Shown here one piece after another: positions 17,513 to 24,034 of a stretch of 40,033 nucleotides of DNA. A program made the translations under genes and the position numbers. The stretch is from Candidatus Bipolaricaulota bacterium. Its GTDB lineage: Bacteria; Bipolaricaulota; Bipolaricaulia; UBA7950; UBA9294. Below the pieces are notes generated by a model. The model worked only from the letters and a program-made list of their open reading frames with translations, had not been told where the DNA came from and ran no database searches. The stretch is taken from the NCBI GenBank assembly GCA_018817505.1, contig JAHITR010000017.1, positions 1 to 40,033 of the forward strand. The letters are read 5' to 3'. Every line of letters starts with the position of its first letter. The first letter of the stretch is position 1.

Positions 17513-20500
17513 TCATTCAACCTGCGACGCAGACTCCTCGCGGCTCGCGGCAGCCACTTCGGCTTTGAGCAATTCTTCTGCGCCCAAAACTTTCGGCTCA
17601 ATGAGGAGGCCAGGAATCTTGAAACCAGTACCAGATGGGATCCTCTTGCCGACAATAATACTCGGTTTGAGACCATCGAGCTCGTCAACTTCACCACGCA
17701 GTGCAGCTTCAGAAAGCACCTTCGTCGTACGCTGGAACGAGGCAGCAGAAAGCCATCCTTTCGTCTGCAAGGCCGCGCGTGAGATTCGGAGCAGTTCGCG
17801 TTCGCCATCAGGAAATGCCTTGGGAATCAACGTAACTTCAACGGATTCTTCGCCGTGCATCACGAAGACTCGTTCGAGCGCCAGTTTCGTGGCTCGAGTG
17901 ATGATCTCAAGCGTCAGCGGAGTTCCGCTGGTCGCGATCAGATGACCCCCAATGGCGACATCTTCGGCCAATGGCTCACCCAAGACATCCTGTCGGATTC
18001 GTTCGGCTTCTTGGTTCCACTTTGTGAGTTCGCGAATCTCCTTGCGGAACGCCTCAAGCGTGACGGAATCGCCAAGCAGGAAACGCGAATCACCTCGATC
18101 AATGATCCGAACGTTATTGAGGATCTGGCGAATAATGATTTCCAGATGCTTGTCGTTAATATCAACGCCCTGTTGTTTGTAAACCTTATGAATCTCATTC
18201 AGCAGGTACTGGCGCGCCTTGTTGACGCCAGCTGTTTCCAGCAGCGTGTGTGGGGCTACGACGCCCTTGGTGATCAAGTCGCCCTCTTCAACCTTGTCAC
18301 CAACGCGAACGGTCACTGCCTTGTCAATCTTGACGATACTCTTGGGCTGCAAGAGGACTGTGGCAATTCCCTTCTTCTTGGTGATGGATTCGATCATGAT
18401 TTCACCCTTGTGCGCGATCTCAAGAGCCAAGACGCTCTCGCCAGCTTTGACGGTTTCGCCGTGTTTCTTGGTGACGTACAAATCAGACGTCAAGGGCAGC
18501 CTCAAGCAATCTCCATCAGGGTTGTAGACAACAATGCGATCAGGCAACAGCAGAACTGTGCCTCCGCCTTCTGCAGCAACGAACACAGGCTTCGAGCGCG
18601 AAGTAAGCTGTTCGCCTTCTTTGACTTGAGCGCCTGCTTCCACCATCAGGCGAGCGCCAAATGGTATCTCGTATTCCGTAATCTGGCCATCCTCGTCGAC
18701 CAGAACAAAGGCTCGGTCTTCGCCTTCTGGAATCTGAACCACGGCGTCACGATCAGCTGTGATCCCTTCAATGTTGTACCGCTCAGTCAGGGCCTCGCCA
18801 TCAGCGACTCGATCGCCATTCTTCACCTTGGGGGTAGCATCCAGAGGCAAAATATAGCTACGGTCGCCAGCGGTCTTGTCAGTGATGAACAGCTCCTGAA
18901 CACCGTCCTCGTTGTCCAGGATGTAGAGCTCGCCCGCACAGGGGCTCGATGGATCGATCAACGTATCCACATCGATCTGCTCACCGGCCTCTGCCCTGAG
19001 TATGGAAACGGGTAGGCGAGCTGCTCGGATCTCTCCCGTGACTTCTACCTGATCCTCGCCTGATGCCGTAGGAAGAATGTTCGTAATGTATCCGTCGAGC
19101 GGGGAAATTCCGGCTTCGCCACTCTTCATGGTTTTTCGGGCTTCAAACAACTCCTCAGCTCGTGGCAATCCCTGCGTAATGTCGTCACCTGCGACGCCCC
19201 CGGTGTGGAAGGTACGCATGGTAAGCTGCGTGCCCGGCTCTCCGACGGATTGAGCAGCGATGACGCCAGCTGCCATTCCCAGAGCCGCTGGCTGGTGGTT
19301 ACTCATGTCATAGCCATAGCAGAGCTGGCAAACACCGTTCGCTGTTTCGCAAGTCATGGGTGAACGAATGACGATCCGCGGTCGAACTCGAACCGTCGTA
19401 ATGCGCGCTTCCTTCAGTAGCTCAAGCAGCCGCGGAGTAAGCAACTCGTCGGGCTTGATGAGAACTCGATCCGTTTCCGGATGCTTGATCTCGCCCACGC
19501 TCTTCGTTCCAATCATGCGTTCTCGTTCAGCAGGTTTCGCCATCGACAATTCGCATTCCAGTCGGCCTAGATGATCTGCAACATCCTGGGAAATCCATTG
19601 ATTGGCATCAATGAGGATCTCGCCGGAGGCAGGATCAATCACCGCCTCAGCAGATACGCGCCCGTAAATGCGTTCATCAATCGATTCCATGACATCGGTC
19701 TTGCTGAACCAAAGCGGATCGATGTCGATTCCCTGTGAGGTTTCGCAATCCAATTCGGAGATGATGGTATCTGACGAGGCGTCCACTAGTCGCCGTGTCA
19801 GATAGCCGGAGTCGGCTGTCTTTAGCGCCGTATCCGCAGCACCCTTGCGGCCGCCGTGCGTGGAGATGAAGTATTCCATCATGTCCAAACCTTCTCTGAA
19901 GTTGGAAATGACCGGGCGTTCGATAATCTCTCCAGAAGGGCCTGCCATCGGGCCACGCATACCGCACAACTGCTTGACCTGATCGGGTCCACCGCGAGCG
20001 CCCGACGTGACCATGCCGTACACAGGATTGAATTGATGCCGCTTGAGGTTCGCCATCGTCGCGTCTTCAACCTCATCGACCGTGCGTCGCCAGATACGAA
20101 TCACCGACTGCTTGCGCTCGTCTTCTGTCGACAGCCCCATGCGGTACATCGTTTCAATTCGCTGCACTGCAGCTGTTGAATTGTGAATGATGCCCTCTTT
20201 CTCCTCAGGAATGAGACAGTCCTTCAGAGAAATGGTCAGGCCCGATTGTGTTGCGTACCTAAACCCCAGATCCTTGAGATCGTCTAGGACCTCGGCTGCT
20301 TTCTGCCATCCATATTCGTGGTAGCAGGTTCGCACAACGCGCCGAATCGCGCTTCGCGTCATTTCTCGGTTGTAGTCGCGTATGGACTCAGGAAAAATCC
20401 GGTTCAGTTCCGCTCGTCCGAGCGTTGTGGCAACACGTTTGCCATCGATGCGAATTTGGACTGGGCTGTGGATATCCAGAATGCCTTCTTCATTCGCTTT

Positions 20501-22510
20501 GCGAGCCTCGTGAATATCACTGAATGCCTTGCCTGCACCCTTCCCGTCTTTCACTTCAATGGTCAGGTAGTAATAGGCATAAACTGGATCCTGCGTCGGA
20601 AGACTGATCGGCTCCCCGTCAGACGGAGATAGGATATTCCTCGGCGCTGCCATTAGCTCGCGCGCTTCCTTGATGGCTTCTTTCGACAGCGGAAGATGCA
20701 CCGCCATTTGATCGCCATCGAAGTCCGCGTTGTATGGAGGACAGATGAGCGGGTGAATGTGAATGGCTTCACCATCCACAAGCACGGGCTCAAACGATTG
20801 CATGGATAGCCGATGCAACGTTGGAGCACGGTTCAATAGAACTGGATGATCCTTAATGAGCTTGTCGAGAATGTCCCACACTTCGGGCATCTCACCGGCC
20901 AACGCCCGGTTCTTTATTTCGTCAAAATCCGAGAACGTGGTGGTCTCAAGATGATGCAGGATGAACGGTTTGAACAACTCGAGCGCCATCTTCTTGGGAA
21001 GCCCGCACTGATGGAGCTTCAGCGTCGGATCGACAACGATGACTGCTCGGCCTGAGTAGTCCACGCGACGCCCCAGCAGGTTACGACGCAAGCGCCCGTG
21101 CTTTCCATGGATACGTTCAGAAAGCGACTTCAGCGGGCGATTGTCGCGGCCGCGAATCGGACTCTCTTTTTTCTCGTTATGAATCAGGGCATCGACGGCT
21201 TCCTGCAACATCCGCCGCTCGTTTCGAAGAATAACTTCCGGTGCGCCCATGTCAATCAATTTCTTGAGTCGATTGTTGCGATTGATGATTCGACGATAAA
21301 GATCGTTGAGGTCCGTCGTAGCGAACTTCCCACCCTCGAGCTGAATCATGGGGCGCAAATCAGGAGGGAGAATCGGAATGACTTCCATGATCATATCCTG
21401 GGCGTTGTTACCAGACTGACGGACTTGGTCGACAATCTCCAGCCGACGGGTAATCCGTCGGCGGTTCCCAGCTGCAGATTCAACGTTCAATTGCGCAGTG
21501 AGCGTGTTGTGCAGTTCATCCATGTCAAGAACTTCCAGCAGACCCTTGAGGCCTGCGGCACCAGTGTCAGCGACAAACCCATCGGGATAGATCCTCTCGT
21601 AGGCGCGCTTCTCCAGATACGAGAGATGGGTTCCCAGTTCAAGTGGAATCGCCGGGTTCTTGATGCGCGTCACAATGAAGATCAGGCTGTCGAGGATTTC
21701 GCGATCCAGGACCTCCCCTTTGAGCGAAGGACCATAGCGATCAGAAAGCATTTCAAAGGCTGTCTGCGAACACAGCTCATCTACTGGGCTCTCGGCAATA
21801 ATGGTCCCCTCGTCGACATCATCGCCTTCTTCGACAAGCAGATCGATTTCACCGATCAGCGGGTATTCCACAGAACCGATGACCACAGCAACAAATTTCT
21901 CACCATTTGTGAGCTGGCGATCCTCGATCATGACGCGCCCAGCTTCGTCTGCGGCAATTCGCGGTGAGTCCTCAATGTAATAGCCAGGCTCTACTTCGAA
22001 TGTAAATTCCTGAGACAGCACATTCACTTCAGATGAATAAAGACTCTCGCCAGGACGCACTTCCTTGCAGTCAGAGGTGGTGACCAGATAAAGTGCCTCC
22101 TCCATGGGCTCCGTCTCGTAGTAGGCAATTCGCTGGAGCTCTCGCTTCTTCATTCCGAGTAGGCGGCTCAGCAAACTGGAAACACCCTTCAAGAACCAGA
22201 AATGCACGACGGGGCTCGCTAGCTGGATGTGCCCCATGTTCACGCGGCGAACCGAAGAGTCCGTAACCAGGACGTGGCACTTCTCGCAGGTGATGCCTTC
22301 GTATTTTTTGCCCTTGTACTTCCCGCAGGCGCACTCGTAGTCGTTGGCCGGTCCGAAAATTTCCTCGGCGTACAGCCCACCACGCTCCGCCCGATGCGTT
22401 CGGTAATTGATCGTTTCGGATTCCGTAATCTCCCCGTGGGACCAATTCAGAATCACCGAAGGGGGAGCGAGCTGAAGTTTGATGCGTTTGATGTCGTCAC
22501 CCGAAATCAC
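17513..22510 (-). CDS. rpoC: DNA-directed RNA polymerase subunit beta' (1665 aa, GTG start)
   Basis: Catalytic [16 protein letters not shown], zinc-binding N-terminus [25 protein letters not shown]-like bridge/trigger segments, C-terminal [21 protein letters not shown]. Confidence 0.98.
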
Positions 22511-22543
22511 TTCTCACCTCGTTTGTTTGTTGCATTCCCGCGG

Positions 22544-22877
22544 TGGAGGGCATGAAGGATCCTTCCTGGACCCATTGCCGCCATGGACAGCGCGCGCCGT
22601 AGCCTGAGCTGATCTAGCCCTCCATCTCTGCTCTCACTAAAATCAGAGACTGTCGTTTCTATTGCTGCCCTTCTATCGACGCGACCTTTGCTGCGTTGAT
22701 GGCTCGTCGCGCCCCCTTTGCATCCTCGCTAAATGTTTCTCCCCCGTTGCCGTTCCACGGCATGGATTGCACTGGGACTTCCTCATTGTTACGATTCAAA
22801 GCCTGTCGGGAATCGTAAAAAAAATCCCCGGTTCAATTGCCATAAAAGCATACCTTTCCCTGCTCCCTGCAGGGAAA
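22544..22877 (-). promoter_or_regulatory. Hairpin-rich 5' leader of rpoC (candidate cis-regulatory RNA)
   Basis: Six inverted repeats: 22544-22551/22617-22624, 22625-22630/22644-22649, 22680-22685/22706-22711, 22748-22752/22758-22762, 22789-22797/22810-22818, 22855-22862/22870-22877. No credible ORF. Confidence 0.45.
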
Positions 22878-22945
22878 TCAAGTACCATCATCTCATTTCT
22901 TCCGTTCATCGCAAATCCACGTACGGACCTGGCGAACAAACCACA

Positions 22946-22973
22946 AGTATAGCTCCAAAACGAGGCTTTTCAA
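22946..22973 (-). promoter_or_regulatory. Sigma70-like promoter for the rpoC/ribosomal supercluster
   Basis: Minus strand TTGAAA-N16-TATACT; the -35 overlaps the TGA stop of the upstream gene. Confidence 0.6.
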
Positions 22974-24034
22974 GCACCTGATATGCGCGTGATAGGTAAG
23001 TGAAGCGGGATGTGCTCCAGTCCCTCTCTCGAGATAAGGTTGTCAACAGATTCAAACGGTTCGACGTTCAGCAGCTGACGTTCGTCTTGCGACTCAAGGC
23101 GATAATAGACGGGAACGGTCGACATCCCTTCGACTCGGGCATAGGTTGCTGTGAGTCTCGCCACAAAATCGATGATGTCCGTCTTCTCCTGTTCGCTCTT
23201 GGTGTCCCAATCCGTTCGCAGAAGGGTCATGGGGCCGTGAGGAGTTGCTGGATAGAGTCTCAAATCCTGAGGGAGAAAGTAATTCTGCAATTCGCGCTTT
23301 TCTTCCTCATCCGATGCGAGGACGATCCGCAGGTCTGGATCTGCCTTAAAGTACAAAGGAAAATCCAGAAGGCACAGAGCATTCAGTGTAACCATCTCTT
23401 CCTTGAAGAGCGCCGCAACTCTCTCACCAAATCCAGGGATCATCAGCTTGCAACGGCGCCCCGCATTCACTGGATCCATCGGATGAATGTTCAATTTCGC
23501 CGCCAGCTGCAGAACAATATCAGTCACATCATCAACGATACCCGTCTGATTCGCGTGATCTGCCCAGGAAGCCAACTGCTCGGGAAGGTTGAGTGGGTCC
23601 TCCGCCAGAAGCGGGTTGAGAATTCTTCCCTCAAGTCCCACACGCGCGGCGATATCAGATGCTTCCTGCATCGCCAAGCCATGTTTACCTGGAATACATC
23701 CCGTCACAACGAAATCAGCGCCAATGCGATCCATGTATCTTGCGGTCTTCGACAGCAAAAGAGATTGGCAGCTGCGGCAGCTTTGTTCAAGGGAGAATTC
23801 GCCTTCCCGGGTCAGCGAAATGAGGTCCTGATAATCCTTCTTGATGGATTGAGTTCTGTAAGTTGCCCTTGTCCATTCGGATTTGACCAATTCGCGCAGC
23901 TCTTCACATTCACGCGAAAAAGGCGATCGGAAGTAGAGCAACTGAATGCTGCTCACGGAAGGATGGCGCTCGACGAGTCTGGTTGCGACTCGGCTCGCCA
24001 AGCTGCCCGAGAATAATGACAAGACCTTAACCAC
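22970..24034 (-). CDS. PP-loop ATPase / ThiI-MnmA-like thiouridylase homologue with degenerate motif (GTG start)
   Basis: VLSLFSGSLASRVATRLV resembles the SGGxDS PP-loop; CRSCQ...ADFVVTGCIPGKHGLAMQ...LEGRILNPLLAED...NAGRRCKLMIPGFGERVAAL is collinear with the TGEVxGQRPMSQ...ILRPLSAKLL...PAGGCLLTDPxFSxRL family pattern. Confidence 0.55.
   Translation of the reverse strand: MVKVLSLFSGSLASRVATRLVERHPSVSSIQLLYFRSPFSRECEELRELVKSEWTRATYRTQSIKKDYQDLISLTREGEFSLEQSCRSCQSLLLSKTARYMDRIGADFVVTGCIPGKHGLAMQEASDIAARVGLEGRILNPLLAEDPLNLPEQLASWADHANQTGIVDDVTDIVLQLAAKLNIHPMDPVNAGRRCKLMIPGFGERVAALFKEEMVTLNALCLLDFPLYFKADPDLRIVLASDEEEKRELQNYFLPQDLRLYPATPHGPMTLLRTDWDTKSEQEKTDIIDFVARLTATYARVEGMSTVPVYYRLESQDERQLLNVEPFESVDNLISREGLEHIPLHLPITRISGA

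Follow-up and report, generated by a model that had tools for sequence, protein, structure and literature searches.

What is the long stretch of apparently noncoding DNA that precedes rpoC in a lineage of Candidatus Bipolaricaulota (Acetothermia), and where does it come from? We analyzed a 40,033-nt stretch of DNA, hereafter the window (assembly GCA_018817505.1, contig JAHITR010000017.1, positions 1–40,033), in which about 430 nt lie between a predicted transcription start and the GTG codon of rpoC at 22510. An earlier note on this DNA had correctly given this distance and had suggested that the leader is a hairpin-rich RNA of an autoregulatory or attenuation type. We conclude, with a probability of roughly 0.8, that an ancestral fmdB-rpoC-rpsL-rpsG-fusA-S10 operon has lost its first cistron and that the leader is the remnant of this gene. 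Features of the locus are compiled in Table 1.

Table 1. Features of the rpoC leader and its flanks in the window.
Feature	Positions	Strand	Evidence or remark
NFACT-R_2 domain protein gene	22970–24034	−	precedes fmdB/rpoC in most family members
Sigma-70-type promoter TTGAAA-N16-TATACT, overlaps NFACT-R_2 gene stop codon	22946–22973	−	conserved position
5′ leader block, former fmdB 5′ UTR	22845–22939	−	conserved above fourfold-site rate
Initiation hairpin TTTCCCTGC-AGGGA-GCAGGGAAA, just 5′ of old fmdB start codon	22855–22877	−	9-bp stem in window; persists in its genus
fmdB zinc-ribbon gene relic, old start codon 22851–22849	22668–22851	−	position, flanks, alignment
Island of ~40 nt within relic	22765–22805	−	nucleotide-level conservation; 74%, 67%, 67% identity
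Structured domain, three hairpins in genus consensus	22511–22667	−	alifold, pair changes, model search
Hairpin P1	22622–22652	−	genus consensus; also in window's own predicted fold
Hairpin P2	22588–22611	−	genus consensus; low probability in window's own fold
Hairpin P3	22540–22584	−	genus consensus; two pairs broken in window copy
rpoC ribosome-binding site GAGGTGAG, 3′ end of structured domain	22520–22513	−	sequence
rpoC, GTG start at 22510	17513–22510	−	first intact gene after leader

Results

The leader and its promoter

Downstream of rpoC, the minus strand continues with rpsL, rpsG, fusA, rpsJ, rplC, rplD and rplB, i.e., the genes for S12, S7, EF-G, S10, L3, L4 and L2, in agreement with the earlier note, which had placed the leader before rpoC and the ribosomal genes. 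On its upstream side the leader is bordered by the NFACT-R_2 gene, with an S30AE-type (ribosome hibernation) gene next beyond it. The usual rplJL-rpoB context is absent at rpoC, again as the note had stated. We found rpoB on another contig of the same metagenome-assembled genome (locus L179 on contig C130), as the last gene of rplK-rplA-rplJ-rplL-rpoB, with a NUDIX gene next to it downstream; the window genome hence has split rpoB and rpoC. The sense strand of the leader holds no intact open reading frame of credible length, as noted before.

TTGAAA-N16-TATACT at 22973–22946 (minus strand), which had been proposed as the promoter, was the sole promoter-like site in the region (one found, 0.4 expected). 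Four of the five genomes in the window's genus have a promoter at the equivalent site, as do most family members; at some family loci it takes the form TTGACA-N16-TATACT, and one genus member, G004, has a weaker version. Since it recurs at the same spot in most of the family, the leader of about 430 nt is probably real. Judged from sequence, transcripts would start near 22939 and carry the rpoC-proximal fold described below.

Comparison of the leader with Rfam covariance models gave no match at the gathering threshold and none at E values up to 5. RNase P RNA (RF00010) was considered at the leader because of its purine-rich strand and was rejected; the RNase P RNA of this genome lies on contig C185 (E 9.6e-91). 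The six consecutive inverted repeats of the earlier note are not in excess of chance, i.e., we counted three perfect hairpins (stem at least 5, loop 3–12) versus 3.0 ± 1.6 in dinucleotide shuffles. Folded as a single sequence, the whole leader had a modestly low energy (z −2.55, with 1 of 100 shuffles as low).

The suggestion of attenuation was not supported either, as the lone terminator-like site in the leader is the old fmdB initiation hairpin and does not go beyond what shuffles give. Within the window's genus, a search of the ~208 nt that immediately precede rpoC revealed no intrinsic terminator. In genera g3 and g10 of the family, a terminator-like hairpin followed by TTTTT, e.g., GGTCCCGTTGCTGGCGGGACCTTTTTG, separates rpoC from an fmdB that may be intact or dead, at most ~150 nt upstream of rpoC (L051–L053, L055, L065, L068, L071, L072). 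Together with L074, L077 and L078, these make up 11 of 35 scored loci with such hairpins, versus 0.35 in shuffles. The g3/g10 hairpin is a candidate for an attenuator of an essential operon.

An fmdB gene precedes rpoC in relatives

We counted the linkage of fmdB and rpoC from the coordinates of rpoC and of PF09723 matches. In 23 of 32 family genomes, the NFACT-R_2 gene and rpoC are separated by an intact FmdB-type zinc-ribbon gene (PF09723); at class level, fmdB stands upstream of rpoC at 32 of 36 loci. The small ORF reads MPFYRYEC..C...LLPRIGVIYKGNGYYTTDYR in relatives, and the L051 copy matched Pfam PF09723. The class-level exceptions among the fetched loci (L165, L167, L168, L176) all belong to family f7; two f7 genomes, G057 and G059, are without a PF09723 match, G040 has a weak one and G061 has one elsewhere. 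A search of a limited set of papers yielded none on the linkage of fmdB and rpoC.

Nine family genomes have no intact linked fmdB, namely all five members of the window's genus, three of the four g3 genomes and G005. An unlinked fmdB is present in eight of these nine, the exception being G001, a genome that is 56% complete. In G029, a linked and an unlinked gene coexist. All unlinked copies fall into a single clade (support 0.97). Their neighbourhoods are conserved, with one arrangement in the window's genus and another common to g2 and g3. This second lineage (L123:1779–2219, minus strand, with counterparts in L124–L131), found where the rpoC-linked copy died, is marked by the motif V.[VI]QFKGSG[YF]YKTD and by a long polar tail rich in Ser and Lys.

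Intact, half-decayed and long-dead copies of the linked gene occur within the one family, which reveals decay in stages. The half-decayed copies (L071, L072) match an fmdB DNA profile across most of its length, with frameshifts. Within the window's genus, the frameshifted relic of G003 (L047) still matched fmdB at both the DNA level (E 3.5e-15) and the protein level (E 7e-14), and that of G001 gave a weak match. For the window's own leader, no similarity to the fmdB profile was detected directly. It aligns, however, with the G001 leader over its full length (69%, E 1.3e-42) and with the G003 leader in its blocks; the fmdB homology of the window relic therefore rests on this chain and on its position. 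The relic has the marks of a pseudogene, i.e., an intact homologue at the same position in relatives, a disrupted frame and a neutral rate of change. Stops and indels in the relics differ from genome to genome, and the leader of G004 has already lost about 100 nt.

Conserved blocks in a decaying leader

As a neutral yardstick we used the fourfold-degenerate sites of rpoC, at which the window is 44%, 34% and 41% identical to G001, G002 and G003, respectively; identities below are given in this order. Two stretches of the relic have evolved at about this pace: the values for 22844–22806 (42%, 28%, 42%) and 22764–22668 (34%, 26%, 35%) lie at, below or close to those of the fourfold sites. Three blocks are conserved above this rate, namely the promoter with the old initiation hairpin, the island of about 40 nt and the ~157 nt adjoining rpoC. 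The 5′ part, measured across 22982–22845 with the promoter included, was 73%, 64% and 63% identical, the 3′ part (22667–22511) 75%, 57% and 71%; both far exceed the fourfold-site rate, with P down to 1e-15.

The initiation hairpin recurs throughout the family. We scored it with a per-sequence stem test, as a plain MAFFT alignment left the hairpins out of register, and obtained a mean best stem of 5.1 bp over 29 loci, compared with 1.76 in shuffles (highest of 200 shuffle means, 2.66). In the window's genus the hairpin persists despite the death of fmdB. Consensus folding of the 5′ part gave an alifold z of −1.8 (column shuffles).

The island likewise exceeded the fourfold-site rate in all three comparisons (P 2e-5 to 6e-4). 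Reading the alignment of window and G001 in the old frame, we found third codon positions no less conserved than the others; the island is thus apparently not kept as protein. No stem of more than 4 bp between the island and other leader blocks was kept in four sequences. The island sequence (22805–22765, minus strand) begins GAATCGTAACAATGAGG; its motif TCGTAACAA is shared with a site close to the 3′ terminus of 16S rRNA, presumably by chance.

A genus-specific fold before rpoC

Alifold values were compared with column shuffles preserving gaps and conservation. The 3′ part reached z −4.8 on five sequences, below all 200 shuffles, and −5.3 on four, likewise below every shuffle; the whole leader reached −4.0 on four sequences, and the relic region lacked a conserved fold (z +0.1). 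Nine pairs of the 3′ part had changed on both sides versus 4.1 ± 1.6 after partner shuffling, and 90.8% of cells could pair versus at most 57.8% with slid partners, a control that by construction favours the derived structure. The covariation is significant but thin, since the genus offers five genomes. Conserved structure with covariation upstream of an operon, as in a regulatory leader, was accordingly found at 22667–22511, within the genus and on five sequences.

A model built from the four other genus members found the window copy at its exact place (E 1e-39), a score much of which is owed to sequence and not to structure. Model R1 had convincing matches in the five genus genomes only, once in each and always before rpoC. 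Outside the genus it gave one weak match, in G045 (E 0.001).

Single sequences folded less uniformly. G001 and G004 gave P1–P3, G003 gave P3, most of P2 and a variant P1, and G002 departed from the genus consensus. The predicted minimum-energy fold of the window copy contains P1 and an alternative GGAGGGC/GCCCUCC stem that replaces P2 and P3. Taken singly, sequences of the 3′ block folded no better than shuffles (z −0.5 to −1.0).

Covariation in orthologous upstream regions, the check proposed in the earlier note, is seen within the genus in the ~157 nt closest to rpoC and not in the middle of the leader. The note's view of the leader as a regulatory RNA fits about a third, where the fold is conserved; the middle is a neutrally evolving dead fmdB.

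Discussion

We propose that the leader arose by the death of a gene. The sigma-70-type promoter that overlaps the NFACT-R_2 stop codon was retained while the rpoC-linked fmdB decayed in the window's genus, apparently because a separate second fmdB had taken over its role. This presumed takeover and the decay of the linked copy would have turned the fmdB message into a 5′ UTR. Its middle is by now mostly free-evolving filler, with selection acting on the old initiation hairpin and above all on the ~157 nt before rpoC, kept as a genus-specific fold. With the upstream cistron no longer translated, this fold may set translation initiation at rpoC or mRNA stability. Such control of rpoC-rpsL-rpsG-fusA-S10 is the role that we consider most likely for the fold, and we put it forward tentatively, at somewhat below even odds. 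That the fold is a protein-binding autoregulatory switch appears doubtful to us; autoregulation by a product of the operon, e.g., β′ or a ribosomal protein, is possible as a model. We likewise think it rather unlikely that the initiation hairpin, the 40-nt island and the old intercistronic stretch jointly form a new genus-specific feedback leader, made by gene death and controlling β′ and much of the ribosome.

Other readings of the leader have to be weighed against this origin. Were the entire ~430 nt a single autoregulatory or attenuation-type RNA, the low energies of the whole leader (alifold z −4.0 on four sequences; single-sequence z −2.55) and the conserved blocks at both of its ends would follow readily. 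The signal, however, stems from the 3′ block, which lacks a terminator, whereas the middle, a dead gene, has z +0.1 and changes mostly at the fourfold-site rate, and we regard a single RNA as very unlikely. Somewhat less improbable is a passive long 5′ UTR whose blocks are leftovers without present function: gene death made the leader, and G004 has already shed about 100 nt of it. Leftovers of this kind are hard to reconcile with 5′ and 3′ blocks conserved so far beyond the fourfold-site rate (P down to 1e-15), or with pairs in the 3′ block that were kept through changes on both sides.

The relic itself could still be translated in one of two ways. The old fmdB start could drive a short leader peptide that controls the operon, as it opens a 20-codon frame in three of the five genus members, the window genome, G001 and G003. 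Their sequences share the start codon, the initiation hairpin and the position of the stop, and the hairpin is conserved. Yet the frame ends after six codons in G002 and after three in G004, the peptide sequence is not conserved and the first stretch of the relic changes at the fourfold-site rate, which leaves a leader peptide with a slim chance. Finally, fmdB might be alive and read through a programmed frameshift, given that in G003 homologous residues continue in another frame. We give this next to no credence in view of stops and indels that vary among genomes, the neutral rate and a window copy in which no similarity remains.

In E. coli, the rplJL-rpoBC intercistronic region contains an attenuator and an RNase III hairpin. 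The locus described here resembles it in having intercistronic RNA structure ahead of an RNA polymerase subunit gene. It differs in that rpoC is separated from rpoB and was instead preceded by fmdB, and in that the genus shows no terminator-like site near rpoC. With respect to the FmdB zinc-ribbon family (PF09723), the relic sits where relatives have an intact member and no longer codes for one in the window's genus.

Leaders of bacterial ribosomal protein operons include those of L10(L12), S10, S4 and S15, and 20 candidates have been presented (PMC7247131), in a study whose main text mentions neither rpoC nor rpoB. Like these leaders, the rpoC-proximal RNA is structured, restricted to a lineage and found once per genome directly before a ribosomal protein operon. 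Unlike them, it has no Rfam match, is followed by rpoC as the first gene, contains no recognised ligand site and is confined to five genomes.

The case shows the stepwise birth of a 5′ leader of an essential operon: the leading gene is lost in genomes that have another copy of it, its promoter is retained, and some of the old transcript survives as structured RNA. Should the fold next to rpoC prove regulatory, this lineage, in which rpoB and rpoC are split, would control its RNA polymerase and ribosomal proteins at a point not described before.
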